Assembly (NCBI RefSeq): GCF_003122325.1
Contig: NZ_QFBC01000008.1
Span: 62,001-126,000 of the forward strand
DNA length: 64,000 nucleotides
Origin: Rhizobium album
GTDB lineage: Bacteria > Pseudomonadota > Alphaproteobacteria > Rhizobiales > Rhizobiaceae
Reading direction: 5' to 3'
Part shown: piece after piece, positions 1,914 through 61,847 of the stretch
Layout: each line of letters opens with the position of its first letter
Position numbering within the stretch: the stretch's first letter is position 1
Program-made: the position numbers and the translations under genes
The notes under the pieces: generated by a model
Database searches by the model: none
What the model saw: the letters and a program-made list of their open reading frames with translations, nothing else
Told to the model about the DNA's origin: nothing

Positions 1914-2806
1914 GCGAGCAGGCGGCGCGGCGCCCAGGCCGGCTTTCGCGAAGGGCCTTTTGCGGGGGCCTGGCCATCGCACTGGCGGGCGATGGGCCGG
2001 CGACGGCGCAGGTCGCCGTCCCTCGTCGCATCGCGGCGCTTGATTGGGCAGCATGTGAAATGCTCGTCGCTCTGGGCATCGAGCCGGTTGCGATTGCGGA
2101 TGCCAAGGGTTTTTCTCAGCAATTTCCGCACAGTGTCCTGTCTCCCGGCACTGTCGACCTCGGCGCCCGATGGGAGCCCAACCTCGAACTGCTGAAACAA
2201 CTGGCACCCGATGCCGTTCTCGTCGGTGGCCTGGGCATATTTCCGATTGCGGAGAGCATCGCTCCGCCTCTTGTCGTTCAGCTTTACGACGGAAAGGCAC
2301 CGCCACTGGCGACCGCCACACGGTCTCTGCTTGAGCTTGGCAAAGCACTGTCGCTGGAGATGCGCGCAGAGCGGTATGTCGCCCAGGTGCAAGCGACATT
2401 CGAAAGGGTGCGCGAGCGGTTGACGGAGCAGAGAAAAGCCGTCCTGATCGTGACGATGGAGCCGGACGGGCTCGACGTCGTGATCCACGGCAGAAACGGA
2501 CTCATCGGCAATTGTCTCGAACGGGTGGGATTGCAAAACGCCTGGGCCGGCGAGGAGAACAGGTGGGGCTTCCGCAAATCGGGCGTGGAGCAATTGCTGC
2601 GCTTCGTCGATGCGGATGTGCGCCTGCTGGTGATCGATCAGGGTGCCCGCACGGACAGGGCATTGAGATCGCTTGCAGGCAACGACATCTGGAAGATGGT
2701 CCTGCCCCGTCCCGAGGCCCTGGTTCGTCTTCCCCCGCTTTTTCCCTTCGGGGCCTTGCCGACCGCCTGGCATTTCGTGCTGGGGCTTGAAACAGCTGTG
2801 GCATAG
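1907..2806 (+). CDS. fhuD: Ferric-hydroxamate periplasmic binding protein, FhuD-like
   Basis: Periplasmic component that hands the ferric siderophore to the FhuB permease. The preferred start is the GTG at 1907, which overlaps the receptor stop codon and leaves an N-terminus with a twin-arginine motif (SRRAF) before a hydrophobic stretch, so Tat export is likely. This gives about 299 residues, normal for FhuD. The class III binding-protein pattern is seen: a segment ending RRIAALDWAACEMLVALGI near the N-terminus, then a GARWEPNLELLKQLAPDAVL region. It sits between the receptor and fhuB with an 8-base gap to fhuB. An earlier start at 1859 inside the receptor gene is possible but less likely. 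Confidence 0.85.
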   Translation: MVGEQAARRPGRLSRRAFCGGLAIALAGDGPATAQVAVPRRIAALDWAACEMLVALGIEPVAIADAKGFSQQFPHSVLSPGTVDLGARWEPNLELLKQLAPDAVLVGGLGIFPIAESIAPPLVVQLYDGKAPPLATATRSLLELGKALSLEMRAERYVAQVQATFERVRERLTEQRKAVLIVTMEPDGLDVVIHGRNGLIGNCLERVGLQNAWAGEENRWGFRKSGVEQLLRFVDADVRLLVIDQGARTDRALRSLAGNDIWKMVLPRPEALVRLPPLFPFGALPTAWHFVLGLETAVA

Positions 2807-2814
2807 CCGGCAGC

Positions 2815-45163: not shown

Positions 45164-46936
45164 ATGTCCGCGGCTCGCTCCTTCGCAACCAATCTGCCGC
45201 CCCGGGCGACCGCGCTTGCCGCCGTGCAAGCGATGCGCGACATCGACGTGCTGGTGGTGGGCGGCGGCATCAACGGCGCGGGCACGTTCCGCGATCTCGC
45301 CTTGCAGGACGTCGGCGTCCTGGCCGTCGATCGGGTCGACTGGGGCGCCGGTGCCTCCATGGCCTCCTCGCGCATGGCGCATGGCGGCCTGCGGTATCTG
45401 GAAAACGGTGAATTCCGGCTGACCGCGGAAGCGACGCGGGAGCGGAACCGGCTGTTGCGAGCCGCCGGCCACATGATCCGGCCGCTTCCGATGGCCATTC
45501 CGTTCTTTTCCCATGGCGCCGGGCTGCTGACGTCGGTGAAGCGGGTCCTCGGGTTTTCCGCCTCATTGCGCGAACGCGGTTTCGTCATGGCGGAGATCGG
45601 TCTTCTTCTCTACGACTGGTTTGGCCGGTTCGACCGGTCGACGCCGCTCCATCGCGCGATGCTTTCGCGCGGCGTGCGCCGTCTCTTCCCCGCGCTGCAC
45701 CCTGCGGTGCGCGCCGCTTCGGTCTATTACGACGCGGTGATCGACGCTCCCGAGCGTATCGCCGTGGAAATGATCGCCGAAGGTCTTGACGCATCGCCGC
45801 GCAGCATGGCGCTCAATCATTGCGCCCTCGTCGCGATCCAGGGAAGCGACGTGGTGCTTCGCGACGAAATTTCGGGGCGCTGCTTCACGCTGCGGCCGAA
45901 AGTCGTCGTCAACGCCGCCGGCGCCTGGATCGATCTTGCCAACGGCGCGCTCGGCATCGATCGCCCGCTGATGGGCGGCACCAAGGGCTCGCATATCGTC
46001 ATCGACCATCCCGGACTGTTCAAGGCTCTATCCGGCCATGGCATGATCTTCGACGATGGTGCAGGACGGGTTTGCATCATCTACCCGATCCGCGGCAAGG
46101 TGCTGCTCGGCGCGACCGATATCCCGGTGGAAAACCCCGATCTCGCTCATTGCTCGGAGGACGAGGAGGATTATCTCCTCGCCGCCGCCCGTGTCATCTT
46201 CCCGAAGATCGATTTCGGCCGCGAGCATGTCGTTTTCCGTTTCTGCGGTGTCCGCCCCCTTCCAAAATCCGGCGCGACAACGCCCGGAGCGGTGAGCCGC
46301 GACCACGCGATCGCCATCTTCGAGCCGGAGGGTGATCGATCCTTCCCGATTCTCAATCTCGTCGGCGGCAAGTGGACGACCTTCCGGGCTTTTTCCGCAC
46401 AGGTCTGCGAGGCCGTCATGCAAAGGCTCGGCTCGGGCCGGAGCGTCGATACCGGCGACCGTGCCGTCGGCGGCGGGCAGGGCATGGCGCAGGCGCCGGC
46501 CCGTCAGGCGCTCGCCCGGTCGCTCGCCGATCGTCACGGCCTTTCACCGGAGCGAAGCGAGGTGCTCGTCAACCGCTACGGTGCGGGCGCACAAGCCGTC
46601 GCCGCCTTTCTCGCGGAGGGAACCGACGCGCCGCTGGCCGACGCGCCGTCCTACAGCGAGCGCGAAATCCTGCGGCTTGTGCGCTGCGAAATGGCAGCGA
46701 GCGTCGAGGACATCATCTTTCGCCGCACGACGCTCGCCATCGACGGCATGCTTTCGACGGCAATGCTCGAACGCATCTCGGCCATCCTTTGCGAGGAGAC
46801 CGGCGGCGATCCCGCGGACGGACTTCGCGACCTCTCCCATCTTATCGAGCGCCTTCGCATCCGCCATGCGGTGCAAAGGTTGCGAGACTGCCCACCACCC
46901 CCGTCACATCTCAATACATTGGAACAACGACCATGA
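45164..46936 (+). CDS. FAD-dependent glycerol-3-phosphate dehydrogenase-like protein
   Basis: 590 residues of the GlpD family. It has FAD-binding DVLVVGGGINGAGTFRDLAL, the substrate-region SSRMAHGGLRYLENGEFRLT and a C-terminal helical domain. GlpD oxidises glycerol-3-phosphate at the membrane and passes electrons to quinone. In an operon with an FGGY kinase and a polyol importer the true substrate may be another polyol phosphate, as with erythritol-phosphate dehydrogenase (EryB), a known GlpD relative in rhizobia. The stop overlaps the next start by a few bases. Confidence 0.88.
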   Translation: MSAARSFATNLPPRATALAAVQAMRDIDVLVVGGGINGAGTFRDLALQDVGVLAVDRVDWGAGASMASSRMAHGGLRYLENGEFRLTAEATRERNRLLRAAGHMIRPLPMAIPFFSHGAGLLTSVKRVLGFSASLRERGFVMAEIGLLLYDWFGRFDRSTPLHRAMLSRGVRRLFPALHPAVRAASVYYDAVIDAPERIAVEMIAEGLDASPRSMALNHCALVAIQGSDVVLRDEISGRCFTLRPKVVVNAAGAWIDLANGALGIDRPLMGGTKGSHIVIDHPGLFKALSGHGMIFDDGAGRVCIIYPIRGKVLLGATDIPVENPDLAHCSEDEEDYLLAAARVIFPKIDFGREHVVFRFCGVRPLPKSGATTPGAVSRDHAIAIFEPEGDRSFPILNLVGGKWTTFRAFSAQVCEAVMQRLGSGRSVDTGDRAVGGGQGMAQAPARQALARSLADRHGLSPERSEVLVNRYGAGAQAVAAFLAEGTDAPLADAPSYSEREILRLVRCEMAASVEDIIFRRTTLAIDGMLSTAMLERISAILCEETGGDPADGLRDLSHLIERLRIRHAVQRLRDCPPPPSHLNTLEQRP

Positions 46937-47934
46937 CACGCCTCGACGAAAAACTTGCCCGCATCGCCGCCGATCCCGCCGGTTCGAAGGAATTCATCAT
47001 CTGCGACGCCAAGGATTCCGACATGGGGTTCGGGCTTGCCCATGGCGGTGCGATGCGCGACCAGGACGGCAACGAGAACGGTCGTATGCGCAGCCGCGAG
47101 ATGTTTCTCGAACAGGTCCGGGCGATCGTCGAGCAGGATATCGTCGATCTCATCCTGCTCAGCGTCAGCAACATGGAGCAGCTTGCCACGCGCGAAAAGC
47201 TGTTCGACACGTCGGACATCGCCGTCGGCATCCGTGCCAACGACACGACCGACGCCTGGGCGTTGCGCAACGCTGCCTATCGCCAGGTGCCCTCCATGCC
47301 GTTCCGCACGGCCGAGATTGCCGACTGCGTGAGCAGCGAGGGTGCCCGGCGCGCCGACATCGGACTTTACTCCATCACTTTCAACAACGATGCGGAAGCG
47401 GATCGCGACTCCCTGGAGTCGTTCCGCGACTTCCGCAGGGAGGCGGTGGCTGCCGGCTTCCCCTATTTCCTGGAAGTGTTCAACCCCAATCTCGAACAGG
47501 GGCTGACGCCGGAGGGCATGCCGTCCTATGTCAACGACTGCATCATCCGCAGTCTCGCCGCAGTCCCGCAGAATGCCCGTCCGCGCTTCCTGAAGGTCGT
47601 CTATAACGGACCGCGCGCCATGGAGGAGCTGGCGGGCTACGATCCGAACCTTATCGTGGGTGTCCTCGGCGGTGGTTCCGGCACGACCTATGACTGCCTC
47701 AAGCTGCTGCACGACGCCAAGAAGTACGGTGCACGCATCGCCCTCTTCGGCCGCAAGATCAACCTTGCCGAAGATCCGCTCGGTATGATCCGCCAGATGC
47801 GGCTTGTCGCCGATGGCGAGGTTTCGCCGACCGAGGCCGTCAAGGCCTACCATGCCGGTCTTGCCAAGCTGAACACCACACCGTTCAGGTCGCTGGAAGA
47901 CGACCTTCGCACCACCGATCCCGTGCTGATGTAG
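46933..47934 (+). CDS. Class I aldolase-like TIM-barrel protein
   Basis: 333 residues. The pattern is that of a (beta/alpha)8 lyase: CDAKDSDMGFGLAHGG, SITFNNDAEADRD, FPYFLEVFNPN, the probable Schiff-base Lys in RFLKVVYNG and a phosphate-binding VGVLGGGSGTTYDCLKLL. I do not recognise a characterised close relative; LacD- and DeoC-type phosphosugar aldolases are the nearest functional idea. ATG 46933 overlaps the end of the GlpD-like gene. It would cleave the ketose phosphate produced by the kinase and dehydrogenase. Confidence 0.7.
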   Translation: MTRLDEKLARIAADPAGSKEFIICDAKDSDMGFGLAHGGAMRDQDGNENGRMRSREMFLEQVRAIVEQDIVDLILLSVSNMEQLATREKLFDTSDIAVGIRANDTTDAWALRNAAYRQVPSMPFRTAEIADCVSSEGARRADIGLYSITFNNDAEADRDSLESFRDFRREAVAAGFPYFLEVFNPNLEQGLTPEGMPSYVNDCIIRSLAAVPQNARPRFLKVVYNGPRAMEELAGYDPNLIVGVLGGGSGTTYDCLKLLHDAKKYGARIALFGRKINLAEDPLGMIRQMRLVADGEVSPTEAVKAYHAGLAKLNTTPFRSLEDDLRTTDPVLM

Positions 47935-49052: not shown

Positions 49053-49889
49053 CTACATTTCCGGCGCCTTGGTTGCAGGAAGGGCATTGCGGAAGGTCGC
49101 GCCGGCCTCGCGGATCTGCGTGATGAGGGCCTCGTCGACGAAGCCCGCCGTCAGGAAGCTATCGACATCCTCCAGTCCGCAAACATGGGCAAGCGTCCGA
49201 CGGCCGAACTTGCTGGCATCCGCCACGACGATGACCTGATGGGCAGCCTGCACGATGACCTGCTTGATCGACGCTTCCGGCAGGTTCGTCGTGCTGATAC
49301 CGAAGTCCGGATCGACGCCGTTGCAGCCGATGAACGCGATGTTGGCGGTGATGTTGCCAAGGATCAGCGTCGCCATCGGCTCGACGAGGGAATGCTGAAG
49401 CGGGCGCAGGCTGCCGCCCGTGACAACGGTCATGATGCGGGGATAGGCCCTCTCCAGCGTCAGTGCGATATTGATGCCGTTGGTGAAGGCGGTGACGTTG
49501 GTCAGGTCCGCTCGCTTCACCAGCGCCTCGGCGATCGCCATGGTGGTGGTGCCGACGTCCAGGATGATCGTATCGTTGCTCTGCACGATATCTGCGGCCG
49601 CCTCGCCGATCGCGCGCTTTCCGGCTTCCTCGCTGGTGCTGCGCGCCTCGTAGGGCGTTTCGGAATAGGGCACCTGGCCGCGCAGGATGCCGCCGCGCAC
49701 GCGGCGCAGGCCATGGTGTTCCTTGCTCAACGCGTCGATATCCGTGCGGATCGTCACCTGCGAAACGCCGAAAAGCTTGGCGAGTTGCTTTACCGAGGCG
49801 AACTGCTCGGTATCGACCATCTTCGCTATGCGCTCGCGGCGCGCTTCGATGTCCAGCGATTCCGCGTCGTTGTCTTGGGCCATCATCAT
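49053..49889 (-). CDS. DeoR-family transcriptional regulator
   Basis: 278 residues from ATG 49889 (ATG 49886 or 49883 are equally possible; no strong ribosome site is seen). N-terminal helix-turn-helix RRERIAKMVDTEQFASVKQL, then KLFGVSQVTIRTDIDALSKE, followed by the DeoR C-terminal sugar-phosphate sensor domain with IILDVGTTTMAIAEAL and FIGCNGVDPDFGIST. It lies between the two carbohydrate gene sets, and CTTTCGAAAG-like sites occur before its own gene and before the kinase/importer genes, so it is likely their repressor, released by a phosphorylated sugar. Confidence 0.91.
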   Translation of the reverse strand: MMMAQDNDAESLDIEARRERIAKMVDTEQFASVKQLAKLFGVSQVTIRTDIDALSKEHHGLRRVRGGILRGQVPYSETPYEARSTSEEAGKRAIGEAAADIVQSNDTIILDVGTTTMAIAEALVKRADLTNVTAFTNGINIALTLERAYPRIMTVVTGGSLRPLQHSLVEPMATLILGNITANIAFIGCNGVDPDFGISTTNLPEASIKQVIVQAAHQVIVVADASKFGRRTLAHVCGLEDVDSFLTAGFVDEALITQIREAGATFRNALPATKAPEM

Positions 49890-49921
49890 TCGTGCCGAAG
49901 CACGCTCCTTTTTAAACGGAA

Positions 49922-49950
49922 AGTGTCTTCTTTTTCTTTCGAAAGACACT
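49922..49950. promoter_or_regulatory. Candidate DeoR operator with nested palindromes
   Basis: AGTGTCTT (49922-49929) is inverted at 49943-49950 (AAGACACT), and the perfect palindrome CTTTCGAAAG sits at 49936-49945. It lies between the DeoR gene and the aldehyde dehydrogenase gene, so it could control both. Similar TTTCGAA cores occur at 40651 and 40821. Confidence 0.55.
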
Positions 49951-50009
49951 GATGCGCAAGCGCTCATCGCTTCGCACAGGCACATGTGAACAATTTAACG
50001 GAGGAAGCC

Positions 50010-51437
50010 ATGTCACATAATCTTCAGTTCTATATCGACGGCCAGTGGGTCGATCCGATAAAAGCCAATGCATTCGACGTCATCGATCCTTCCGACGAGC
50101 AGCCCTTCGCGCAAATCTCGATAGCTGGTCAGGCTGACGTCGACAAGGCGGTCGCTGCCGCCAAGCGCGCGTTCCGCACCTTCGGCCGTACCACGCCGCA
50201 GGAGCGCCTGGCGCTTCTCGAACGCGTTATCGCCGCCTACAAGCGCCGCCAGGACGATCTTGCCGAAGCGATTTCGCGGGAAATGGGTGCGCCACGCTCC
50301 TTTTCCCGCGATACGCAGGTCTGGATCGGGCTCGCCCATCTGGAAAAGATGGCAGAGGTGCTGAAGACCTATTCCTTCGAGGAGCGCAAGGGCACGGCTC
50401 TCATCACCAAGGAGCCGATCGGCGTCGTCGGCATGATCACGCCCTGGAACTGGCCGCTCAACCAGATCACCTGCAAGGTCGCGCCGGCGCTGGCGGCGGG
50501 CTGCACGATGGTGCTGAAGCCGAGCGAGATCGCGCCCCTCGATGCGATCATCTTCGCCGAAATCATGGACGAGGCCGGCGCTCCGGCCGGTGTTTTCAAT
50601 CTCGTCAACGGTGACGGAGCGACGGCCGGCCAGGCGCTCGCCAGTCACCCGGATGTGGATATGATGTCGTTCACCGGTTCCACGCGCGCCGGCATCCTCG
50701 TCGCCAAGGCCGCAGCCGACACGGTCAAGCGGGTGCATCAGGAGCTTGGCGGCAAATCCGCCAACATCCTCTTCCCGGATGTCGATTTCGAGGACGCCGT
50801 CACCAAGGGCGTGGCTGGCTGCTTCCTCAACAGCGGGCAATCCTGCAACGCGCCGACGCGCATGTTCGTGCCGCGCGACCGGCAGGAGGAGGTGATCGCG
50901 CATGCGCGTAAAGCTGCCGAGAGCTATGGGGTCGGGCCGGCCAGGCAGGATCCAAAGCTCGGCCCAGTCATCAGCCAGGTCCAGTTCGACAAGATCCAGG
51001 ACCTCATCGAAAGTGGCGTCCGCGAAGGTGCGACGCTGGTGGCCGGCGGTGCCGGCCGGCCCGATGGCCTCAACAGCGGCTACTTCGTCCGTCCCACGGT
51101 GTTTGCCGACGTGACGCCGGACATGCGCATCGCCCGCGAGGAGATCTTCGGGCCGGTCCTGTCGATCCTGCCCTACGATACGGTCGAGGAGGCGCTGGAG
51201 CGGGCCGACGACACGGTCTATGGGCTCGCCTCCTACATCCAGTCCCGCGACCTGGAGAAGGCGCGGCACGCGGCCCGGCAGATGCGGACCGGAAATGTCC
51301 ACATCAACTATCCCGCCTGGGACGCGGGGGTCGCCTTCGGCGGTTACAAACAGTCCGGCAACGGGCGCGAATATGCCGAGTTCGGCCTCGAGGACTTCCT
51401 CGAGATCAAGGGCATTCTCGGCTACGACGCCGCCTGA
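50010..51437 (+). CDS. Aldehyde dehydrogenase
   Basis: 475 residues; ATG 50010 has a GGAGGAAG site. Oxyanion Asn in ITPWNWPL, catalytic Glu in QELGGKSAN, catalytic Cys in NSGQSCNAPTRMFV and a C-terminal AFGGYKQSGNGREYAEF. It opens a second plus-strand gene set (kinase, enolase-like, ribose-type importer) and is divergent from DeoR. Its substrate is probably a sugar-derived aldehyde in the same pathway. Confidence 0.92.
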   Translation: MSHNLQFYIDGQWVDPIKANAFDVIDPSDEQPFAQISIAGQADVDKAVAAAKRAFRTFGRTTPQERLALLERVIAAYKRRQDDLAEAISREMGAPRSFSRDTQVWIGLAHLEKMAEVLKTYSFEERKGTALITKEPIGVVGMITPWNWPLNQITCKVAPALAAGCTMVLKPSEIAPLDAIIFAEIMDEAGAPAGVFNLVNGDGATAGQALASHPDVDMMSFTGSTRAGILVAKAAADTVKRVHQELGGKSANILFPDVDFEDAVTKGVAGCFLNSGQSCNAPTRMFVPRDRQEEVIAHARKAAESYGVGPARQDPKLGPVISQVQFDKIQDLIESGVREGATLVAGGAGRPDGLNSGYFVRPTVFADVTPDMRIAREEIFGPVLSILPYDTVEEALERADDTVYGLASYIQSRDLEKARHAARQMRTGNVHINYPAWDAGVAFGGYKQSGNGREYAEFGLEDFLEIKGILGYDAA

Positions 51438-51499
51438 TCTCCATCCGCCGGGCGCCGCCTGCCGGCGCCCGGCCATTTCCATCGCGTTGGGGAGAGGTC

Positions 51500-52492
51500 A
51501 TGGTCGACCCCGAATTTGCCGCCGTCCTGCAGAAAATGGGCCTCGTCACTCCGGGCACGCTGCTCATCATGCAGCCGCTGACCGGGGGCGTCGCCTCCGA
51601 TATCGTGCTTGTGGAAGCGCCGGGGCGCCGCTTCTGCGTGAAGAGAGCGCTCGCCCGGTTGAAGGTGGCCGCCGTCTGGGAGGCGCCGATCAGCCGCAAT
51701 GCCGCCGAAGCAGCCTGGCTTCGCCGCGCGAGCGGCTGGGTTCCTGGGGCCGCCCCGGCGATCCTCGGCGAGGACGTGGCATCGGGCACCTTCGCGATGG
51801 ATTACCTTCCCGCCGAAACGCATCCTGTCTGGAAGGAGCAACTGCTGGCGGGAAAGGTCAACCCAGCCTTTGCGGGCGCTGTCGGCCGGAGCCTTGCAAC
51901 CATTCACGGCCAGAGTGCCGCTGATCCCTCGGTTCCCGCCGCCTTTGCCAATGACGATACTTTCGAGGCAATCCGTATCGAACCGTATCTGCGGGCCACA
52001 GCCCGGGCACATACCGATCTTTCCGATGCCCTCGAACGTCTCGCGCTGCGGACACTCTCCACCAAGCGGGCGCTGGTGCATGGCGATGTCAGCCCCAAGA
52101 ATATCCTGTGCGGCCCTGATGGGCCGGTTTTCCTCGATGCCGAATGCGCCTGGTTCGGCGATCCTGCATTCGATGTCGCCTTCTGCCTCAACCATCTTCT
52201 CCTCAAGGGTGCGCGAGAGGGGGGCAACAAGACCGATCTTGCGTGCGCCTTCGACGCCTTTCTCGCCGCCTATTTTGCATGGGTCGACTGGGAGGATGGA
52301 GCGGAACTCGAAAGCCGTGCCGCCGCGCTCCTGCCGGCGCTCTTTCTTGCCCGTGTCGATGGCAAGTCGCCGGTCGAATATCTGCAAACCGATCGGGAGA
52401 AGGAGCGCGTGCGCACCTTCGCGCGGCCGCTCGTCGCCAGCCCGCTGCCCCGACTTTCCCAAATTTCCGACCTCTGGAGAACCACCGAATGA
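51500..52492 (+). CDS. APH/choline-kinase-fold phosphotransferase
   Basis: 330 residues of the aminoglycoside-phosphotransferase fold. Visible are a Lys in the ATP-binding sheet (RRFCVKRALA), the catalytic loop LVHGDVSPKNILCGP and the metal-binding DAECAWFGDPAFDVAFCLNH. Members phosphorylate small hydroxyl compounds, including methylthioribose and homoserine. It overlaps the start of the enolase-like gene (ATGA), so the two are translationally coupled. This suggests that its product, a phosphorylated sugar or sugar acid, feeds the enolase-like enzyme. Antibiotic resistance is unlikely from this context. Confidence 0.8.
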   Translation: MVDPEFAAVLQKMGLVTPGTLLIMQPLTGGVASDIVLVEAPGRRFCVKRALARLKVAAVWEAPISRNAAEAAWLRRASGWVPGAAPAILGEDVASGTFAMDYLPAETHPVWKEQLLAGKVNPAFAGAVGRSLATIHGQSAADPSVPAAFANDDTFEAIRIEPYLRATARAHTDLSDALERLALRTLSTKRALVHGDVSPKNILCGPDGPVFLDAECAWFGDPAFDVAFCLNHLLLKGAREGGNKTDLACAFDAFLAAYFAWVDWEDGAELESRAAALLPALFLARVDGKSPVEYLQTDREKERVRTFARPLVASPLPRLSQISDLWRTTE

Positions 52493-53766
52493 GCACTATC
52501 CGAAGCATACACGCCCGCCGTATCTGGGATTCGCGCGGCCGCCCGACGGTGGAAGCCGAGGTGACGCTGGCGGACGGGGCGACAGGCCGCGGCATTGCGC
52601 CCGCCGGCGCCTCCCGCGGCACGCGCGAGGCCATCGAACTGCGCGACGGCGGCGACCGGCTCGGCGGTCTCGATGTGTCGCAGGCGCTCGCGGGCATCCG
52701 CGATGAGATCGCGCCGGCCCTTCGGGGGATCGATGCGCTGAAGCAGGAAGAGGTCGACGAGCGGCTGATCGGGCTCGACGGAACGGTGAACAAGGCTCGC
52801 CTCGGCGGCAACGCCACCGTGGCCGTATCGCTGGCGGTGCTGCATGCGGCTGCGGCGAGCAGCGGAATGCCGCTCTGGCGCTATTGTGCCGGCGGGCAGC
52901 CTGTGAGCATTCCTCTGCCGGAGATCCAGATATTCGGTGGCGGCGCGCATGCCGGCCGGCGGACCGACGTCCAGGATTTCATGGTCGTTGCCCAGCGCGC
53001 GCAGAGCTTTGCCGAGGCGCTGGAGATCACGGCGGAGATCTACCGTGCGGCGGGTTCGCTGATGGCAGAGCGCGGCCGCCTGCAGGGTGTTGCCGACGAG
53101 GGCGGCTGGTGGCCCGCCTTCGACAGCAACGAAGAGGCGCTCGACGCCCTCGTTTCGGCCATAGAACGCGCTGGCTACACGCCGGGGCACGAAGCGGCAA
53201 TCTCCCTCGACATCGCCGCGTCCGAATTCGGACGCAACGGTCGCTATCGCCTCGCCATGGAAGACCGTGAACTCGACAGCGACGGCATGGCCGAATACCT
53301 GCTGCGCTGGTGTGAACGTTACCCCATCGTCTCCGTCGAAGATCCGCTGGCGGAGGATGATCCGGATGGTCTTGCCCGTTTCACCGCCTCTGTCGGCGAT
53401 CGCATGCAGGTGATCGGCGACGATTTCCTCGTCACCAACGCGAACCTCGTGGAACGGGCAGCCGCAAACGGCAATGTCAATGCCGTGCTCATCAAGGTCA
53501 ACCAGGCCGGAACCGTCAGCGAGGCGAAGGCAGCCTGCGCGGCGGCGAAACGCGCGGGTTTCGGCACGATCGTTTCGGCGCGGTCAGGCGAGACGGAGGA
53601 TGTGGCCATCGCCCACCTCGCCGTCGGCTGGGACAGCGGACAGCTCAAAGTCGGGTCCTTCGCCCGCTCCGAGCGCATGGCGAAGTGGAACGAAGTCCTG
53701 CGCATCGAAGAACAATTCGAGGCCGGAAGCGTCGGTATACGCGATGTCTTCGGGAGGGGGAAATGA
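52489..53766 (+). CDS. Enolase-like protein with altered active site
   Basis: 425 residues, homologous to phosphopyruvate hydratase over its whole length. Metal ligands Asp241, Glu284 and Asp311, the general base Lys336 (LIKVNQ), Glu204 (DEGG) and Lys387 are kept. Changes from E. coli enolase numbering: Glu168 becomes Asp163, and the substrate-binding His370 becomes Ala364 (SARSGETED in place of SHRSGETED). The mobile loop SGAST is AGASR, and the HADNNVD loop is HAGRRTD. It is unlikely to be the housekeeping enolase; a dehydratase for another 2-phospho acid is inferred. ATG 52489 overlaps the kinase stop. Confidence 0.85.
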   Translation: MSTIRSIHARRIWDSRGRPTVEAEVTLADGATGRGIAPAGASRGTREAIELRDGGDRLGGLDVSQALAGIRDEIAPALRGIDALKQEEVDERLIGLDGTVNKARLGGNATVAVSLAVLHAAAASSGMPLWRYCAGGQPVSIPLPEIQIFGGGAHAGRRTDVQDFMVVAQRAQSFAEALEITAEIYRAAGSLMAERGRLQGVADEGGWWPAFDSNEEALDALVSAIERAGYTPGHEAAISLDIAASEFGRNGRYRLAMEDRELDSDGMAEYLLRWCERYPIVSVEDPLAEDDPDGLARFTASVGDRMQVIGDDFLVTNANLVERAAANGNVNAVLIKVNQAGTVSEAKAACAAAKRAGFGTIVSARSGETEDVAIAHLAVGWDSGQLKVGSFARSERMAKWNEVLRIEEQFEAGSVGIRDVFGRGK

Positions 53767-53903
53767 CGGTTGACGCTTCGGCTTTGTCAACCGTGCAGAA
53801 AAGCACCGGCGCCGACCCGATGTGCCTAAGCCTCGGATCGGCCAGCCGGGAGCTGGAACAGGCGCGCATTCCGCGCACCTATCAACAAGGAGGAGTCAAA
53901 AGC

Positions 53904-54839
53904 ATGAAATCGAAATTGCTCGCCGCAGCCCTGTTCGGTGCGGTCGCCATCGCCTCACCGGTTCACGCCAAAATGCTGTCCAAGATCGGCGTTTCCGTCG
54001 GCTCATTGGGCAATCCATTCTTCACCGCGATTGCCCGCGGCGTCGAAACGGAAGCAAAGAAAATCAACCCGGACGTCAAGGTGACCGTCGTTGCCTCGGA
54101 CTACGATCTGTCGAAGCAGATGCAGCAAATCGACAGCTTTGTGGCCGCCGGCGTCGACGTCATCGTTCTTGACGCAGTCGACCCACGGGCACTGGGCGCG
54201 GCCATCAAGCGGGCTCAGGCGGCCGGAGTTTTCGTCGTCGGAGTTGATGAGGAAGCAGAGGGCGAGGACGCCATCTTCATGACGGATAACGTCGCTGCGG
54301 GCGAAATGTCCTGCCAGTATATCGTCGACCGTCTCAACGGACAAGGCAATGTGGTCATCATCAACGGCCCTCCGGTTTCCTCTGTCGTCGCGCGGGTCAA
54401 GGGATGCAATGCAGCGCTGGAAAAAGCGCCGGGCATCAAGATCCTGTCAAGCGACCAGGATGGCAAGGGATCTCGCGACGGCGGCCTCGCCGTGATGCAG
54501 GCGCTCATGGTGCGGTTTCCAAAGATTGACGCCGTTTTCGGTATCAACGATCCCTCGTCGATCGGCGCTTCGCTGGCCATGCGCCAGGCGAACCGTGACG
54601 ATTTCTTCATCACCAGCGTCGATGGCTCGCCCGATGTTGAAGAAGCAATCAAGGATCCCGCCACAAAAATTCATGCTTCAGCGTCTCAGGATCCATACGA
54701 GATGGCTGTCCGCGCGGTCAGGGCAGGCAACGATCTGTTGAACGGGAAGCGCCCCGAACGGGTGAAAACGCTGATCACGCCAACCTTGATCACGCCGGAA
54801 AATATTTCCGATTTTCATGGATGGAGCAGTTCCAGGTAG
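53904..54839 (+). CDS. Ribose-type sugar ABC transporter binding protein
   Basis: 311 residues with a Sec signal peptide (MKSKLLAAALFGAVAIASPVHA). RbsB pattern: KIGVSVGSLGNPFFTAIARG, VDVIVLDAVDPRALGAAIKR, a VFGINDPSSIGASLAM hinge and ITSVDGSPDVEEAI. AAGGAGGAG precedes ATG 53904. The in-frame codons from 53763 onward lie between the enolase-like stop and this start and are probably not translated as part of it. The nearby enzymes suggest a sugar or sugar-acid ligand. Confidence 0.92.
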   Translation: MKSKLLAAALFGAVAIASPVHAKMLSKIGVSVGSLGNPFFTAIARGVETEAKKINPDVKVTVVASDYDLSKQMQQIDSFVAAGVDVIVLDAVDPRALGAAIKRAQAAGVFVVGVDEEAEGEDAIFMTDNVAAGEMSCQYIVDRLNGQGNVVIINGPPVSSVVARVKGCNAALEKAPGIKILSSDQDGKGSRDGGLAVMQALMVRFPKIDAVFGINDPSSIGASLAMRQANRDDFFITSVDGSPDVEEAIKDPATKIHASASQDPYEMAVRAVRAGNDLLNGKRPERVKTLITPTLITPENISDFHGWSSSR

Positions 54840-54890
54840 TCGACTTCGCCGGCAGTGACATTTCCGCCGCCGGCGATTTCTGCTCAAACT

Positions 54891-54934
54891 CCTGAAGCGT
54901 TTCCGGTGAGTCCGGTCACCGGAAACGCTTCAGG
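54891..54934 (+). promoter_or_regulatory. Large perfect hairpin between binding-protein and ATPase genes
   Basis: CCTGAAGCGTTTCCGGTGA (54891-54909) is repeated in perfect inversion at 54916-54934 with a 6-base loop. At 19 bp it is the longest stem in the window. A TTTT run lies 9 bases downstream, so it may act as a partial terminator. The remaining 170 bases to the ATPase start show no gene. Confidence 0.65.
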
Positions 54935-55105
54935 GAATTGTTTTGACGGAATGATCCGGGGCGAGGCGATCTCGCCCGGCTGGAACTCCTCCAGCGCGAC
55001 GAAATGGCAATCCCACCATGCATGCATATCGAACGTTTTCTGCGACTTCGCCACCGAAGAACGGCAACCCGCTCCACAAAGTTCCTTTCCGACAAGGTGA
55101 CCTCG

Positions 55106-56611
55106 ATGACCATGGCAAGCAGTTCCTATCTGAGAATGGAGAACGTATCGAAGACATTCGGGCGAGCGCAGGCGCTGTCGAACGTCTCGCTCGATGTTCG
55201 CTTGGGCGAAATTCATGCCCTGATGGGTGAGAATGGTGCGGGCAAGTCCACACTCATGAAAATCCTGTCGGGCGCGTATCTTCCAGATGCAAACTCCGCG
55301 ATCTACATCGACCAGAAACGCGTCTGGATCTCCGGACCCCATGCGGCCCAGGCGCTGGGCATTTCCATCATTTACCAGGAGCTGTCGCTCGCGCCGAACC
55401 TTACCGTCGCCGAGAACATCTATTTGGGGCGGGAGATCTCGCGAAGCCGGTTCGTCAGCCGTTCGGCCATGGAGGAGGGCGCCCGGAACATCCTCAAGAG
55501 GCTGAATGCCAATTTTGGACCGCGTGACAAGGTGGGACAGCTCTCGATCGCCGAACGGCAGCTCGTTGAGATCGCCCGCGCGCTGAACTTCAAGTGCCGG
55601 ATACTGGTAATGGACGAGCCGACCACAACGCTTTCGGAACGGGAGACGGACAAGCTGTTCCAGCTCATGCGTCAGCTCCGGTCCGACGGGATGGCGATCG
55701 TGTATATCAGCCACCGGATGAACGAGGTCTACGAACTTGCGGACCGGGTTTCGGTGCTGCGAGACGGCACATATGTCGGAACCCTTGATCGCTCTGATAT
55801 GGTTCCTGAAACCGTCGTGCGGATGATGGTGGGCCGCGACGTCAGCTCTTTCTACAAGAAGGGCCATTCCCCCGAAGGTGAAATGGGGACCGTCGCCGTT
55901 CGAGTCCAGGGGGTCGGCGACGGGCGGCGTGTCCACGAATGCAGTTTCGATGTTCACCGGGGCGAGGTGTTGGGCATCGCGGGCCTCGTCGGCGCAGGCC
56001 GAACCGAACTGGCCCGCCTGGTATGCGGAGCCGACCGCAGAGCGAGCGGGACAATCGAACTCGACGGTCGCCGGATCGACATCCGCTCCCCGCTGGACGC
56101 GCAGCGATCCGGCATCGCCTACCTTACCGAGGACAGGAAGCAATTGGGCCTGTTCCTTGACATGAGTGTGTCGGAGAACCTCAACCTCGATGTGATCGAG
56201 AGGGATTCGAAATTTGGCTTTCTCAACCGGATCGCAGCGCGCCGGCGCAGCAGGAAGGCCACCGAGCTTCTAAGCATCAAGGCAGCGTCTTCCGACGTGG
56301 CCGTGGGCAGCCTGTCGGGGGGAAACCAGCAGAAAGTGCTTCTGGCGCGGCTGCTTGAGACGAACCCGCGTTTCCTGATCCTCGACGAACCGACGCGAGG
56401 CGTGGACATCGGCGCCAAATCCGAAATCTACAAGCTCATCGACGACCTCGCGAAATCAGGCATCGCGATCGTCGTCATTTCGTCTGAACTCCCGGAAATC
56501 GTGGGCATTTGCGACCGGGTGATCGTCATGCGCGGGGGGCGCATCGCCGGGTCGCTCAAAGGCCCCGAGATCACCCAGGAAAACATCATGGAGATTGCGA
56601 CCTCCGCCTGA
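55106..56611 (+). CDS. Ribose-type ABC transporter ATPase (two nucleotide-binding domains)
   Basis: 501 residues in two ABC domains. First: Walker [10 protein letters not shown], signature [15 protein letters not shown], Walker [16 protein letters not shown]. Second: degenerate Walker [10 protein letters not shown], signature [14 protein letters not shown], Walker [17 protein letters not shown], which keeps the Glu that is lost in the paralogue encoded at 23199. The start is ATG 55106 with AAGG upstream; ATG 55112 is possible. It lies 265 bases after the binding-protein gene, beyond the long hairpin. Confidence 0.92.
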
Positions 56612-56658
56612 TCTCGATGGTGAGGTCGGCTTGAACTTTGAATTTGATGGGAACGGAT

Positions 56659-57681
56659 ATGACATCGCCAGACACTTCGACACAACAAATGCAGATCCGG
56701 AATCGCTCGGTTGGAGCCACGATACGGGCAATGGGAATGCTTCCCGTCCTCATTCTGATCGCACTGCTCTTCCAGGTCCTTTCCTCATACGCGGAGACGG
56801 GCGAGTCCTTATGGACAGCCGGCCGGTTTCTGACCGTCGGCAACCTCTCGATCGTCGCCCAGCAGGCGTCGATCAACACGGTTCTCGCCGCAGGCATGAC
56901 GTTCGTCATTCTCACTGGCGGCATCGACCTTTCGGTCGGCTCCATCCTGGCCGCCTCGGCGATGTCCGCCCTGTTGGTCTCCCTCATGCCGGGTTTCGAG
57001 CACCTGGGCTTGCCTGCCTCCTTGCTGGTCGGCCTGGTCCTTGGGGCGATGAACGGCGCCCTCATCGCGTTCGCAAAACTCCCGCCCTTCATCGTTACGC
57101 TGGGGTCCATGACGGCGGTGCGTGGTTTTGCCCGCTTCCTGGGCAGCGACAATACGGTTTTCAACTCCGATCTCACTTTCGCATTCATAGGCAATGGTTC
57201 CCTTTTCGGCGTGCCATGGCTCATGATCATTGCTCTCGCGACGGTGCTGGTGTCCTGGGTCATTCTTCGCCGCACCGTTCTGGGCGTCCGAATTTATGCG
57301 GTAGGGGGCAACGCCGATGCCGCACGGCTGTCGGGGATCAAGGTCTGGTGGGTTCTTCTTTTCGTCTACGGCGTCTCCGGCCTCCTGGCCGGGCTCGGCG
57401 GGGCGATGTCGGCAGCCAGGCTGTATGCTGCAAACGGGCTTCAGTTGGGCCAATCTTATGAACTTGACGCAATCGCGGCCGTTATTCTCGGTGGGACCAG
57501 CTTCGTCGGAGGTGTCGGGTCGATCTGGGGCACCCTCATCGGTGCGATGATCATCGCGGTGCTGTCAAATGGCCTCATTCTGACGGGTGTAAGCGATATC
57601 TGGCAGTTCATAATCAAGGGGTTCGTCATCATCGGGGCCGTAGCGCTCGATCGTTACCGTGTTGCCGGTGCCCGCACCTGA
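56659..57681 (+). CDS. Ribose-type ABC permease (RbsC family)
   Basis: 340 residues; ATG 56659 has GGGAACGG just upstream, and ATG 56647 is an alternative. The family signature AGMTFVILTGGIDLSVGSIL is at about residues 80-100, with GVRIYAVGGNADAARLSGIK in the coupling region and GGTSFVGGVGSIWGTLIGAM near the end. The single permease would form a homodimer with the ATPase and binding protein encoded upstream. The 211 bases after it, to 57893, show no gene. Confidence 0.92.
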   Translation: MTSPDTSTQQMQIRNRSVGATIRAMGMLPVLILIALLFQVLSSYAETGESLWTAGRFLTVGNLSIVAQQASINTVLAAGMTFVILTGGIDLSVGSILAASAMSALLVSLMPGFEHLGLPASLLVGLVLGAMNGALIAFAKLPPFIVTLGSMTAVRGFARFLGSDNTVFNSDLTFAFIGNGSLFGVPWLMIIALATVLVSWVILRRTVLGVRIYAVGGNADAARLSGIKVWWVLLFVYGVSGLLAGLGGAMSAARLYAANGLQLGQSYELDAIAAVILGGTSFVGGVGSIWGTLIGAMIIAVLSNGLILTGVSDIWQFIIKGFVIIGAVALDRYRVAGART

Positions 57682-57893: not shown

Positions 57894-58769
57894 TTACGCC
57901 GATGCGGGCGCAAGTTTGCGGGCAATGTCGAAGAATGCGCTCACCAGCTTGCCGTTGGCGCGCTCGCGAAGGCAAATCAGGGCCTCGTCCATCAGCATTT
58001 CTGGCGCGTCTATCTCGATCGGGATGAGGCGATTGTCCTGCCCGAATTCGGCAGAAGAGACAAAGCCTATCCCGCCACCCGCCGCGACGATCTCCCGAAC
58101 GGCTTCGCGTCCTTCGGCTTCGATGAGAGGTGTAAGCGACGCGTTGCATTGCCGTGCCATCACCTCCAGTTTCTGGCGGGTCTTCGAACCCTGTTCACGC
58201 ATGACCAGGGGGTGCTTCAAAAGCTCGGAAAACGAGATCCGCTTGGTATCGGCGAGAGGATAGTCGCGGCTCGCGAAAGCGATGATGGGCGTGGAATTGA
58301 GTTTCAGGATTTCGAAGTCGCTGGATTGCGGGATTTCTCCGAGGACGCCGATGTCCGCTTCGTAGGCGTGCAGGCTGGTGATGACGGACTCCGTGTTGCC
58401 GGCATCGATCGAGACCTGTACCGAGGGGTAGGCGCGACGGAAGGCGGCGAGGATGTGCAGGAGGTGGTGGGCGGCGTCGGCGACGATGCGCAGCCTTCCC
58501 GCGCGCAGTGCGCGCGATTCCGACAGGAGGTCGAGCGCCTGCTGCTCGATATCGAACATGCGCCGGGTGACTTCGAGAAGCTGTTGGCCAGCCTGCGTCA
58601 GCGTCACCTGTTTCTTGTTGCGGTTGAAGAGCAGGACATCGTACTCTTCCTCCAGTTTGCGCACCTGGTCCGAAATGGCGGGCTGGGTGAGAAACAGCGC
58701 CTCCGCAGCGCGAGAAAAGCCGCCGTGGATCGCCACGTTGTGAAAGGCGCGGAGTTGCACATAGCGCAT
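57894..58769 (-). CDS. LysR-family regulator of the phosphonate genes
   Basis: 291 residues from ATG 58769, where the classic LysR N-terminus begins (MRYVQLRAFHNVAIHGGFSR, then AAEALFLTQPAISDQVRKLE); the longer frame to 58925 adds an unlikely extension. The C-terminal co-inducer domain has type 2 periplasmic-binding features. It is divergent from the Na/Pi transporter gene and next to phnWAY, matching regulators of 2-aminoethylphosphonate use in alphaproteobacteria. A similar 19-base sequence occurs in its promoter region and before phnW. Confidence 0.9.
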   Translation of the reverse strand: MRYVQLRAFHNVAIHGGFSRAAEALFLTQPAISDQVRKLEEEYDVLLFNRNKKQVTLTQAGQQLLEVTRRMFDIEQQALDLLSESRALRAGRLRIVADAAHHLLHILAAFRRAYPSVQVSIDAGNTESVITSLHAYEADIGVLGEIPQSSDFEILKLNSTPIIAFASRDYPLADTKRISFSELLKHPLVMREQGSKTRQKLEVMARQCNASLTPLIEAEGREAVREIVAAGGGIGFVSSAEFGQDNRLIPIEIDAPEMLMDEALICLRERANGKLVSAFFDIARKLAPASA

Positions 58770-58803
58770 GAAGGTCGGCTTTCTATAATATGAAGCTATG
58801 CGT

Positions 58804-58822
58804 TTATTAAAACTAACGATTT
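58804..58822. promoter_or_regulatory. Candidate LysR binding site 1
   Basis: TTATTAAAACTAACGATTT between the divergent LysR and transporter genes matches TTATACAAAAGAACGATTT at 60561-60579 before phnW at 15 of 19 positions. This lies 35-53 bases from the LysR start and 63-81 from the transporter start. Confidence 0.45.
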
Positions 58823-58884
58823 GATTTATGTAAAGCGGCAAAGGATAATTCGGAGATTTCCACTCTCTTTGCGGATCGCGCCCC

Positions 58885-60537
58885 ATGACCCTTCCGGCCG
58901 TCGCCCTCGAACTTGCCGCCGCCACCGTCCTTCTGCTCTATGCCGTCAGTCTTGTGAAGAAGGGTGTCGAGGCGGCCTCGGGCGATATGGTGGCGCGCAT
59001 CGTCGGCGGTGGCGGCGGGCGGTTGCGCGCCGCGTTCTACGGCTCTTTGGTGGCGATCGCCCTGCAAAGTTCGACGGCGGTCGCCATGCTCGCGGCCGGC
59101 TTTGCCGTCAGCGGTGCGCTGGCCCTCGATGCGGGGCTCGCGGTGCTGCTCGGCGCCGATCTCGGTTCGGCGCTGGTCGTCAAGATCCTCTCCTTCGACC
59201 TGCACTGGCTGGCGCCCCTCCTGATCGTCGGCGGTGGTCTCCTCCATCTGAAGGCGCGTTCGCGCAGGGCGGTGGAAGCGGGGCGCGGGTTGCTTGGCAT
59301 CGGCCTTCTGCTGCTGTCGCTGCAGATGATCGGCCATGCGACGCTGCCGCTGGCGCAAAGCCCGCTGCTGCCGTCGGCCATCGCTTTCCTCGGCAAGGAT
59401 GCGCTGACGGTCATGATCCTCGCCGTGGCCTTCACCTGGGCGTTGCATTCCAGCGTGGCGGCGATCCTGCTCATCCTGACCTTCGCAGCGAAAGGGATCG
59501 TGCCGCTCGATGTCGGCATTCCGCTGGTTCTCGGCGTCAATCTCGGCGGCGGGCTGATCGCCCTCTGGCTGACCCGTGGCCTGCCGGTCGAGGGGCGCCG
59601 CCTGCCATTGGGCAACCTCCTGTTTCGCGCATTGTTCAGTGCGGCGGCCTTCGCGCTGTTTTCGCTGCATGCGCCTTTCGACTGGCTGCCCGGCGATACG
59701 GTCGCCGGCAGGCTCGTCAACCTGCATGTCCTGTTCAACGCCGCGCTGGTTCTGATCGGGCTCGTCGGCTGCGGCCTGATGGGACGTCTCGTCCGGCTTC
59801 TCACGCCGGAGGCGGCAAGCGAAGGCGAACTGACGGCCCATGTCAGCGCCCTCGACCGCTCGCTGATCGACAAGCCGGCGCAGGCGCTCGCGGCGGCGGC
59901 GCGGGAGGTGCTGCATATGGGCAACCTCATCACCCGGATGCTGGAACCCGTCATGACGGTCATCCACTCGCCGACGCCGGAAGCGGTCGAAGCGCTGCGC
60001 CGCGTCGATGGCGATATCCACAGGGCTCACAGCGAGATCAAGCTCTATATCGCGGCCGTCAACCGCGGGGTGCTCACCGAGGCGCAGTCGCGCCGGGGCA
60101 TCGAACTCACCGAGGCGGCGATCCATCTCGAATATGCCGGCGACGTCGTCGCCAAGAGCCTGCTGCAGATGGCCCAGGAGCGCCTCGACGGCGCAGGGGG
60201 CTTTTCGCCGCAGGGCTGGCGGGAACTGACGCTGCTGCATGGCGCGGTTTTTTCCAACGTCCGGCTCGCCGCCAATCTGCTCGTCTCGCCCGACCCCGTC
60301 ATCGCCCGCGAGATGGTGCGGCAGAAGGAGCATGTGCGCAGCCTCGTGGAGGCGAGCAGCAAGAACCATCTGGAACGCCTGCGGCAGGGTCTCGCCGCTT
60401 CCATCCAGTCCAGCGACATGCACCTGGAGATCGTGCGCGCGCTGAAGGAGGTCAATTCTCTGGTCACCACCATGGCCTATCCGCGTCTGCGGGAGACTGG
60501 CGACCTGCTGGAAAGCCGTCTGGTGCCTGCAGTCTAG
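58885..60537 (+). CDS. Na/Pi cotransporter family protein
   Basis: 550 residues. The N-terminal 330 hold two Na/Pi-cotransporter repeats with the QSSTAV-type motif (ALQSSTAVAMLAAGFAVSGA) and its degenerate second copy (ALHSSVAAILLILTFAAKGI). The C-terminal 200 are a PhoU-like helical domain (LEYAGDVVAKSLLQMAQERL). Relatives move phosphate with sodium. Within the phosphonate cluster it could export or import the phosphate freed by PhnA, or carry a phosphonate. It starts at ATG 58885. Confidence 0.87.
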   Translation: MTLPAVALELAAATVLLLYAVSLVKKGVEAASGDMVARIVGGGGGRLRAAFYGSLVAIALQSSTAVAMLAAGFAVSGALALDAGLAVLLGADLGSALVVKILSFDLHWLAPLLIVGGGLLHLKARSRRAVEAGRGLLGIGLLLLSLQMIGHATLPLAQSPLLPSAIAFLGKDALTVMILAVAFTWALHSSVAAILLILTFAAKGIVPLDVGIPLVLGVNLGGGLIALWLTRGLPVEGRRLPLGNLLFRALFSAAAFALFSLHAPFDWLPGDTVAGRLVNLHVLFNAALVLIGLVGCGLMGRLVRLLTPEAASEGELTAHVSALDRSLIDKPAQALAAAAREVLHMGNLITRMLEPVMTVIHSPTPEAVEALRRVDGDIHRAHSEIKLYIAAVNRGVLTEAQSRRGIELTEAAIHLEYAGDVVAKSLLQMAQERLDGAGGFSPQGWRELTLLHGAVFSNVRLAANLLVSPDPVIAREMVRQKEHVRSLVEASSKNHLERLRQGLAASIQSSDMHLEIVRALKEVNSLVTTMAYPRLRETGDLLESRLVPAV

Positions 60538-60560
60538 GACCATAAATTAAATCGATAAAT

Positions 60561-60579
60561 TTATACAAAAGAACGATTT
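60561..60579. promoter_or_regulatory. Candidate LysR binding site 2, upstream of phnW
   Basis: TTATACAAAAGAACGATTT lies 60-78 bases before phnW in an AT-rich gap. It resembles the site at 58804. Just before it, ATAAATT (60542-60548) is inverted at 60558-60564. A separate promoter for phnWAY is therefore likely. Confidence 0.45.
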
Positions 60580-60638
60580 TACAGATATGTCTTTCCGCCG
60601 CATTGTCGTCTCCAGATCAGTAAACGTGAGGACGGACC

Positions 60639-61829: not shown

Positions 61830-61847
61830 CGAAGAATGGAACTCCCG

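Follow-up and report, generated by a model that had tools for sequence, protein, structure and literature searches.

Organization of the locus

The 64,000-nucleotide stretch of Rhizobium album DNA analysed here (the window) contains a gene coding for an aldehyde dehydrogenase (ALDH; 50010..51437, + strand; PF00171) that ends 62 bp 5′ of a gene for an APH-fold kinase (51500..52492, +; Pfam PF01636, 61.8 bits), which is followed by a gene for a 425-residue enolase paralogue (52489..53766, +) with D163, A364, G150, A202 and W208 where enolase has E, H, N, G and A. The kinase stop codon shares bases with the paralogue start codon in an ATGA motif (52489..52492, +), and the local company of the pair further includes genes for an RbsB-like periplasmic binding protein (53904..54839, +), an RbsA-like ABC ATPase (55106..56611, +) and an RbsC-like permease (56662..57681, +). 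These coordinates bear out the first-pass annotation, which had placed an overlapping kinase and enolase paralogue between an ALDH and a ribose-type importer. In the R. album window the ALDH and kinase genes are probably on one transcript; for none of the 25 NCBIfam models shown does the ALDH reach the cut-off.

Transcribed divergently from the ALDH gene is a gene for a DeoR-family protein (49053..49985, −) that is likely to be the local regulator, and which has homologues (29%) in two Labrys loci among 99 related loci. Another gene (46933..47934, +) codes for a protein that looks aldolase-like by eye, with one weak NCBIfam match (20 bits), no Pfam family and no match at 1e-10; its homologues are in only two of the 99 loci, Labrys L003 and L004 (53–54%), 3–4 kb from the pair. 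We left aside a link to the downstream phosphonate genes, which sit behind a LysR regulator of their own.

The enolase paralogue and its partner kinase

The paralogue has the enolase fold. It scores 473.5 bits against the phosphopyruvate hydratase profile (TIGR01060; curated cut-off 300), the NCBI model names the family members tested phosphopyruvate hydratase, and its AF2 model (pLDDT 86.8) has a TM of 0.94 to Mycobacterium tuberculosis enolase with 2PG. The metal ligands D241, E284 and D311 and the base lysine K336 are retained in all 100 family members, where members and canonical enolases were separated at 55% identity to the query (the window paralogue). E204, K387, R365, S366, S42 and H154 are also kept in the paralogue, and the phosphate and carboxylate ligands in 100 of 100 members. 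However, D163, A364, G150, Q147, A202, W208 and V388 are present in every member and in none of 42 canonical enolases, and additional arginines occur in loop 2 (R157 in 96 members, R158 in 99). We take D163 to be Glu168 in yeast numbering and A364 to be yeast His373, the position that the first-pass annotation called His370; the replacements Glu168 to Asp, His373 to Ala and Asn155 to Gly are thus found in 100 of 100 members, with Glu, His and Asn in 42 of 42 canonical enolases. Its description of a kept metal site and general base with these two and further changes is therefore confirmed, and extends to the whole family. Judging from the aligned positions and the roles we assume for yeast Glu168, Glu211 and His373, the C3-side or leaving-group pocket appears to be altered in the paralogue. 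Glu163 of M. tuberculosis enolase is reported to be essential, as judged by its mutation to Ala (PMC10619443).

In a tree of 40 of the 100 members and the 42 canonical enolases, the paralogue clade stands apart with support of 100/100. The R. album genome has another enolase, on contig C56 (440 bits vs 293), with canonical residues, so that the paralogue is not the sole enolase gene, the circumstance in which the first-pass proposal would have failed; two enolase matches are present in each of the eight genomes seen with the paralogue.

Membership of the kinase in the APH fold is supported by the HGDxxxxN and DxE/D motifs (here HGDVSPKN and DAECAWFGDP), the catalytic Lys and Glu and a fold search. 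Residues H194, G195, D196, N201, D213, E215, K48 and E70 are invariant in 29 sequences and present in at least 98% of 75, and the alignment shows many invariant basic residues. The nearest fold to the AF2 model (pLDDT 95.5) is methylthioribose (MTR) kinase (2pyw; 17% identity), and the NCBIfam MTR kinase model gives 53 against a cut-off of 275. The Pfam scan of the kinase returned APH only, with no GckA-type (PF13660) or GlxK-type glycerate kinase domain; a gene for a GckA-type glycerate kinase is located elsewhere in the R. album genome, on contig C45.

Linkage of the kinase and the paralogue

The kinase is present in 95 of the 99 paralogue loci, less than 500 bases away in 62 of these and at least 3 kb away in 27; L144–L146, three loci that do not belong to the paralogue, are left out of the count. 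It is absent from all 42 loci of canonical enolases, but these span just ~4 kb. When the search starts from the kinase, the paralogue is 18–45 bases away in all 14 loci fetched, these being drawn from the 27 kinase-bearing genomes (R. album included) among 297. The synteny check proposed for adjacent APH-kinase and enolase-like genes thus shows a conserved pair. Genes in the related loci were called by codon score (high-GC DNA), and an identical ATGA overlap is seen in 34 of 86 gene-called pairs. Distances among kinases and among paralogues are correlated (r 0.89 over 75 loci; none of 500 permutations as high), to which shared descent contributes. The pair is found in Pseudomonadota and Actinomycetota, while Planctomycetota and Bacteroidota contribute one example each, and in Labrys (L003) it occurs by itself downstream of a TetR gene.

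There are informative cases among more distant enolases. Three plasmid enolases of 48–50% identity that adjoin the kinase have D163, A364 and A202, whereas six others (45–49%) have E163, H364 and G202, with no kinase within the 300 bases of flank examined. Two of these three deep kinase-linked enolases (Sphingobium and M. nodulans) lack G150, Q147, W208 and W400, and most of the other changes are therefore dispensable for linkage. Taken together, the comparisons support the kinase and paralogue acting as a coupled unit.

Genomic context in related loci

The ALDH and importer do not recur with the pair as orthologues. The 99 related loci contain two homologues of the ALDH (35–37% identity), 8–9 kb away, and none of the binding protein at E 1e-15. 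In a wider comparison (E 1e-6, with 17 further loci; 116 in all) distant CUT2-type importer genes (26–45%) were found in three loci, L005, L091 and L194: the binding-protein homologues are at best 26–29% and the permease homologues 37–39% in three related loci, and the ATPase homologues are 45% in L005 and 38% in L091. In Persicobacter (L218) an ALDH of 32% is directly upstream of the kinase. Sugar importers of the CUT2 type thus recur occasionally near the pair, but an orthologous ALDH and importer set does not. The first-pass annotation had proposed a route of import, oxidation, phosphorylation and dehydration; its coupled kinase and paralogue stand, and the residues point to elimination on a phospho-acid other than 2PG, but this ALDH and importer, with no recurring orthologues, are not upheld as parts of the route.

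Other neighbours are more frequent. In 51 of 99 loci a 2-hydroxyacid dehydrogenase (HADH) or PanE-like reductase lies no more than 3 kb away, and 37 have none of three dehydrogenase kinds nearby; no HADH was found among the R. album window proteins scanned. A PEP carboxylase (PEPC) gene, ppc, is adjacent to the pair in Rhizobium-type loci only, and HADH, kinase, paralogue and ppc are together in three Rhizobium plasmid records and the sampled genome G147. The Rhizobium-like genomes G147 and G083 each have a single PEPC match, located in the cluster with kinase and paralogue (that of G147 is partial, profile positions 251–919), and the R. album genome has no PEPC match. The dehydrogenase of the Rhizobium clusters resembles PGDH and glyoxylate/hydroxypyruvate-reductase models, with scores that fall short of the cut-offs.

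Clusters with FAH and SDR genes are present in Paracoccus, Roseibium, Oceaniglobus (L064) and one sampled genome (L151); the sequence retrieved for these contains no obvious aldonate dehydratase gene. The FAH protein of L091 scores 368 bits (cut-off 500) with the 2,4-didehydro-3-deoxy-L-rhamnonate hydrolase model, and there is a UxuA-like gene in two clusters of this kind, L091 and L031. We do not take the latter as proof of an ordinary dehydratase, the model match being partial and below the NCBI cut-off (148.6 vs 191). In Paracoccus seriniphilus a UxaA-type pair, hydroxyacid and Ldh dehydrogenases and an exporter, which resemble genes of sulfolactate catabolism, lie ~14–21 kb from the pair; the UxaA-type genes may also represent a sugar-acid dehydratase. 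No recurring gene for phosphate removal was noticed near the pair. The settings, which include catechol-type dioxygenase, sugar, cyclitol and stand-alone, are so diverse that a single substrate for all loci is not obvious.

Possible functions of the pair

The conservation of the pair, the common residue changes and the second enolase gene were computed directly. We somewhat favour the explanation that the product of the kinase is a 2-phospho acid unsuitable for normal enolase, and that the paralogue converts it to PEP or a PEP analogue. The kinase would phosphorylate the hydroxyl group at C2 of a small acid resembling glycerate; K336 of the paralogue would then abstract the C2 proton, with carboxylate and phosphate gripped as in enolase, and the C3 group would be expelled to give phosphoenolpyruvate or PEP bearing an extra group. 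A 2-oxo acid may be converted to the 2-hydroxy acid by the HADH or PanE-like reductase near about half of the pairs, and in the R. album window the ALDH may supply the acid from an aldehyde. Phosphorylation at C2, this chemistry and a differing substrate are inferred. The paralogue probably acts on something other than 2-phospho-D-glycerate, since the residues facing C3 and the leaving group are replaced alike in every member, and since a product accepted by the house enolase would need no dedicated partner. Ordinary 2-PG activity is nonetheless conceivable, since Asp for Glu is a conservative change and the profile score is above its cut-off.

The Rhizobium-type clusters with HADH and ppc resemble a chain from hydroxypyruvate through glycerate, 2PG and PEP to oxaloacetate, and the paralogue could be an isozyme for D-2PG in such a module, composed of hydroxypyruvate reductase, a new-fold D-glycerate 2-kinase, enolase and PEPC. 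The position of the only PEPC matches of G147 and G083, the sub-cut-off matches of the dehydrogenase and the paralogue's score above the enolase cut-off all agree with it. However, we consider it unlikely, as the catalytic Glu and His are replaced in all 100 members, though the genomes seen hold another enolase, R. album has a GckA-type glycerate kinase and no PEPC, and the six plasmid enolases not seen beside the kinase in 300-base flanks retain Glu and His. The original sugar-acid form of the first-pass route, in which 2-phosphorylation and dehydration yield the enol phosphate of a 2-keto-3-deoxy acid, is quite unlikely. The ALDH and importer flank the pair in R. album, sugar-type importers recur in some loci, and the FAH/SDR clusters lack an obvious aldonate dehydratase in the stretch fetched, but the lack of conserved orthologues, the absence of a recurring phosphate-removing gene and the UxuA-like gene in L091 and L031 argue against it. 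A C3 acid converted to PEP fits the stand-alone pairs and the PEPC neighbour better than a 2-phospho sugar acid does.

The need for a special enolase and the stand-alone pairs would also be accounted for if the kinase made 2-phospho-L-glycerate and the paralogue were an enolase for this mirror-image substrate, yielding PEP. Some clusters (SDR, SGL, FAH) look like a sugar, lactone, diketo-acid and hydrolase route, which gives pyruvate and glycerate from hexose. This is very unlikely in our estimation: conservation of the base lysine in all 100 members favours the usual face of proton abstraction, the HADH and PanE families normally yield D acids, and no paper on such a kinase or phospho-acid route came up in the open-licence literature searched. 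Highly improbable is a phosphosulfolactate lyase, with the kinase phosphorylating 3-sulfolactate and the paralogue expelling sulfite to give PEP, the reverse of the archaeal ComA reaction. The loop 2 arginines and the P. seriniphilus genes are consistent with it, but homologues of the small UxaA protein and exporter are in none of 116 loci, which counts for little as most of these reach only 9–10 kb from the paralogue, less than the Paracoccus gene distance, and TauE-like exporters are in six loci only, all six being Ramlibacter records.

On balance, we lean towards a second enolase clade, annotated as phosphopyruvate hydratase, that uses a new phospho-substrate from its own kinase, in a module of two enzymes that would turn an acid into its 2-phospho form and this into PEP or a PEP analogue, plugged into sugar, cyclitol and catechol-type clusters. 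The recurrence of the altered enolase with its own kinase in many other bacteria suggests an undescribed route in which a small acid is phosphorylated and water or another group is then eliminated; no paper on such a kinase–enolase pair was found in the open-licence literature searched. Enolase is generally regarded as catalysing a single reaction; if the proposal is true, a diverged enolase tied to its own kinase would be a new conversion of acid to PEP, and the shift in specificity would be directly testable, the partner kinase together with two residue changes being a simple marker. Because automatic annotation labels the clade members checked as glycolytic enolase, a wrong reaction may have entered the metabolic models of many bacteria from soil, the sea and plants.

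Comparison with known systems

Several known systems share parts with the pair. The L-rhamnose and L-fucose diketo-acid hydrolase routes have SDR and FAH hydrolase components like the neighbours in some loci, but to our knowledge no counterpart of the kinase and paralogue. The serine-cycle segment of methylotrophs consists of hydroxypyruvate reductase, glycerate 2-kinase, enolase and PEP carboxylase, and the same enzyme types occur in the Rhizobium-type clusters; however, the kinase fold differs, the enolase is from the altered clade, ppc adjacency is restricted to Rhizobium-type loci and R. album is without PEPC. Methylthioribose kinase and other APH-fold small-molecule kinases have the fold and catalytic motifs in common with the partner kinase, which is separated from them by its low identity to the nearest solved structure (17%) and its MTR model score (53 vs 275). 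Phosphopyruvate hydratase (EC 4.2.1.11, TIGR01060) is like the paralogue in fold, metal ligands, base lysine, Glu211, phosphate and carboxylate ligands and a score over the cut-off, whereas the paralogue is on a separate side of the tree, has Glu168 to Asp, His373 to Ala and Asn155 to Gly, is linked to a kinase and is the second enolase gene of its genome.

Gene organization

Three consecutive forward-strand genes, encoding an aldehyde dehydrogenase (ALDH; 50010-51437), an APH-fold kinase (51500-52492) and an enolase paralogue (52489-53766), are followed by ribose-type ABC importer genes recognized by profile matches, and a DeoR-type regulator upstream is transcribed away from them. Rechecking of the coordinates confirmed the order ALDH, kinase, paralogue and importer described in the first-pass annotation, as well as the ATGA common to the kinase end and the paralogue start. 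The paralogue is not the only enolase of the genome, a case that would have refuted that annotation: a genome search places a canonical enolase on another contig. There is no second kinase copy in the genome (the sole other match is weak, at 28% over 79 residues) and no PEP carboxylase match; a GckA-type glycerate kinase and four IlvD/EDD-type dehydratases are present.

Upstream, the segment 40746-49029 contains sugar-type ABC importer genes, a Zn-alcohol dehydrogenase, a GlpD-like FAD dehydrogenase and an aldolase-like protein with no Pfam family, and is perhaps a sugar or polyol cluster controlled by the same DeoR gene. Two Labrys loci have homologues of the aldolase-like protein near the kinase-paralogue pair. 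Downstream is a phosphonate unit (57894-63110) with a LysR regulator of aminoethylphosphonate type (361 bits, cut-off 341), the PhnW transaminase (485 bits, cut-off 401), the PhnA phosphonoacetate hydrolase (542 bits, cut-off 408) and an ORF at 58885 that is Na/Pi transporter-like by eye.

The kinase and paralogue are conserved together

Scanning GTDB genomes with the paralogue gave at least 576 relatives, of which the best 80 were taken as loci; these range from Labrys (79%) to Burkholderiales, Streptomyces and one Phycisphaerales MAG. With 12 plasmid records and seven loci from genome samples this makes 99 loci, and the kinase is present in 95, at less than 500 bases from the paralogue in 62, 500-3000 in six and farther in 27. 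Among the four others, one record starts 42 bases upstream of the paralogue (L013), two have ~3.4 kb of upstream sequence each (L066 and L078), and one has no kinase despite 10 kb on either side (L079). The kinase is immediately 5′ of the paralogue in 46 of 86 gene-called pairs, 34 of them with the ATGA, and is found at none of 42 canonical enolase loci, which are only ~4 kb long.

The adjacency sought on the strength of the first reading also recurs when the kinase is the starting point. The kinase occurs in 27 of 297 genomes of the window's order, its own counted, and in all 14 loci fetched from these the paralogue is 18-45 bases away, measured between alignment ends; one of the 14 (L204) apparently repeats the contig of a locus already in the set (L043), the contigs being equal in length and the neighbours 100% identical. 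Kinase and paralogue distances are correlated (r 0.89 for 75 loci; none of 500 permutations reached this value), to which shared descent alone contributes. It is close to certain that the two form one functional unit; a search limited to open-licence literature found no published description of it.

Departures in the surrounding genes

The ALDH and importer had been read as members of the same unit, in a route of import, oxidation, phosphorylation and dehydration, and this is not borne out. At E 1e-15 the 99 loci contain no binding-protein homologues and two ALDH homologues (35-37%), 8-9 kb away. A looser limit with 17 more loci added distant CUT2 importer genes in three (L005, L091 and L194); in Persicobacter it also revealed an ALDH (32%) directly 5′ of the kinase. 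Both may still supply the pair in the window's organism.

Of the 99 loci, 39 have a hydroxyacid dehydrogenase no more than 3 kb from the kinase or the paralogue (seven of them without a dioxygenase), 12 a PanE-like reductase and 51 either, and 37 have none of the three dehydrogenase kinds counted. At the same range an HpaD-like dioxygenase is found in 36, a cupin in 33, CMD in 31 and an FAH-type hydrolase in 12, with FAH at greater distance in 31 more. These counts are not independent, because the clusters of Streptomyces, Variovorax, Paraburkholderia and Rhizobium are related to one another. The PanE, kinase and paralogue genes overlap in one sampled genome, and those for kinase, paralogue and hydroxyacid dehydrogenase in another. 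In a deep-branching cluster from Sphingobium, the genes for dehydrogenase, kinase, paralogue and FAH are consecutive, and next to them are a LacI regulator and genes for a dioxygenase, a cupin and an alcohol dehydrogenase; SDR, gluconolactonase and FAH2 occur in some other loci, what we would call inositol-catabolism-type genes in one (L153), and in a Labrys locus (L003) the unit is TetR, kinase and paralogue.

We note that two Burkholderiales loci encode a ~260-residue membrane protein without a Pfam match directly 5′ of the kinase (L035, 8192-8977; L070, 8231-9004). A Paracoccus seriniphilus plasmid (L219, 1035-14956) has sulfolactate- or sugar-acid-catabolism-like genes close to its kinase-enolase cluster: a UxaA-type pair, two dehydrogenases, an exporter, TTT transporters, an aldolase and a semialdehyde dehydrogenase.

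Active site of the paralogue

The family (100 relatives) and canonical enolases (42) were split in advance at 55% identity to the 425-residue query, and in a tree of 40 family members and the 42 canonical enolases a single branch (support 100/100) separates them. Residues S42, H154, Q162, E204, D241, E284, D311, K336, R365, S366 and K387 are retained throughout the 100 family members. Every member also differs from the 42 canonical enolases, whose residues are given in brackets, in having Q147 (N), G150 (N), D163 (E), A202 (G), W208 (A), P286 (G), A364 (H), V388 (T in 36, S in six), W400 (Y) and E402 (Q); R157 is found in 96 members and R158 in 99. In yeast enolase, Glu168 and His373 lie in the environment of C3 and of the C3 hydroxyl. 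Since these match replaced residues (D163 and A364) and the other ligands are kept, the changes are predicted from the alignment to alter the leaving-group side and to leave the phosphate, carboxylate and proton-abstracting sides intact. M. tuberculosis enolase is numbered as the paralogue to within one residue, and a study of it describes Ala mutants of Asp241, Glu163, Glu204 and Lys335 as non-functional and S42A as retaining ~5% activity (PMC10619443).

As a control, nine plasmid enolases of 45-50% identity were read out of 42 listed rows below 60%. Those of Sphingobium, Methylobacterium nodulans and Persicobacter adjoin the kinase and have D163, A202 and A364, whereas the same positions read E163, G202 and H364 in those of Cupriavidus taiwanensis, Arthrobacter, Methylocystis, Azospirillum, Listeria and Xanthomonas; five of these six have no kinase among annotated neighbours (300 bases of flank), the Arthrobacter record being unannotated. 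The Sphingobium and M. nodulans enolases are without Q147, G150, W208, W400 and E402, and D163, A202 and A364 are therefore the common core of the kinase-linked group. A single origin is possible, as one branch of a quick tree of 45 sets the kinase-linked enolases apart, although the placement of Persicobacter, a long row, is unsure.

Two of the canonical-type plasmid genes have neighbours of their own. The C. taiwanensis gene (L209), without the altered residues, follows ppc, and the Listeria gene (L214), with a canonical active site, adjoins the fluoride exporter gene crcB; fluoride inhibits enolase, so the latter is possibly a resistance duplicate.

Substrate and product

All eight genomes seen with the paralogue have two enolase matches, the second, where listed (three genomes), at 45-48% identity. 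This and the shared residue changes make a substrate other than 2-phospho-D-glycerate likely. Three family members run against the NCBI model all score as phosphopyruvate hydratase and five annotated plasmid records use that name, so public annotation of the family is probably misleading.

PEP carboxylase adjoins the dehydrogenase and kinase in three Rhizobium plasmid records. For two genomes sampled from the window's family (G147 and G083), the sole PEP carboxylase match, partial in G147, lies within the kinase cluster. The remaining five sampled genomes have it elsewhere or as a weak match (three) or have none (two). The clustering in these Rhizobium-type records and two genomes suggests that PEP is the product of the pair, which fits formation from D-2PG, as in the ordinary enolase reaction, from L-2PG, or from a lactate 2-phosphate that carries a substituent at position 3 and loses it.
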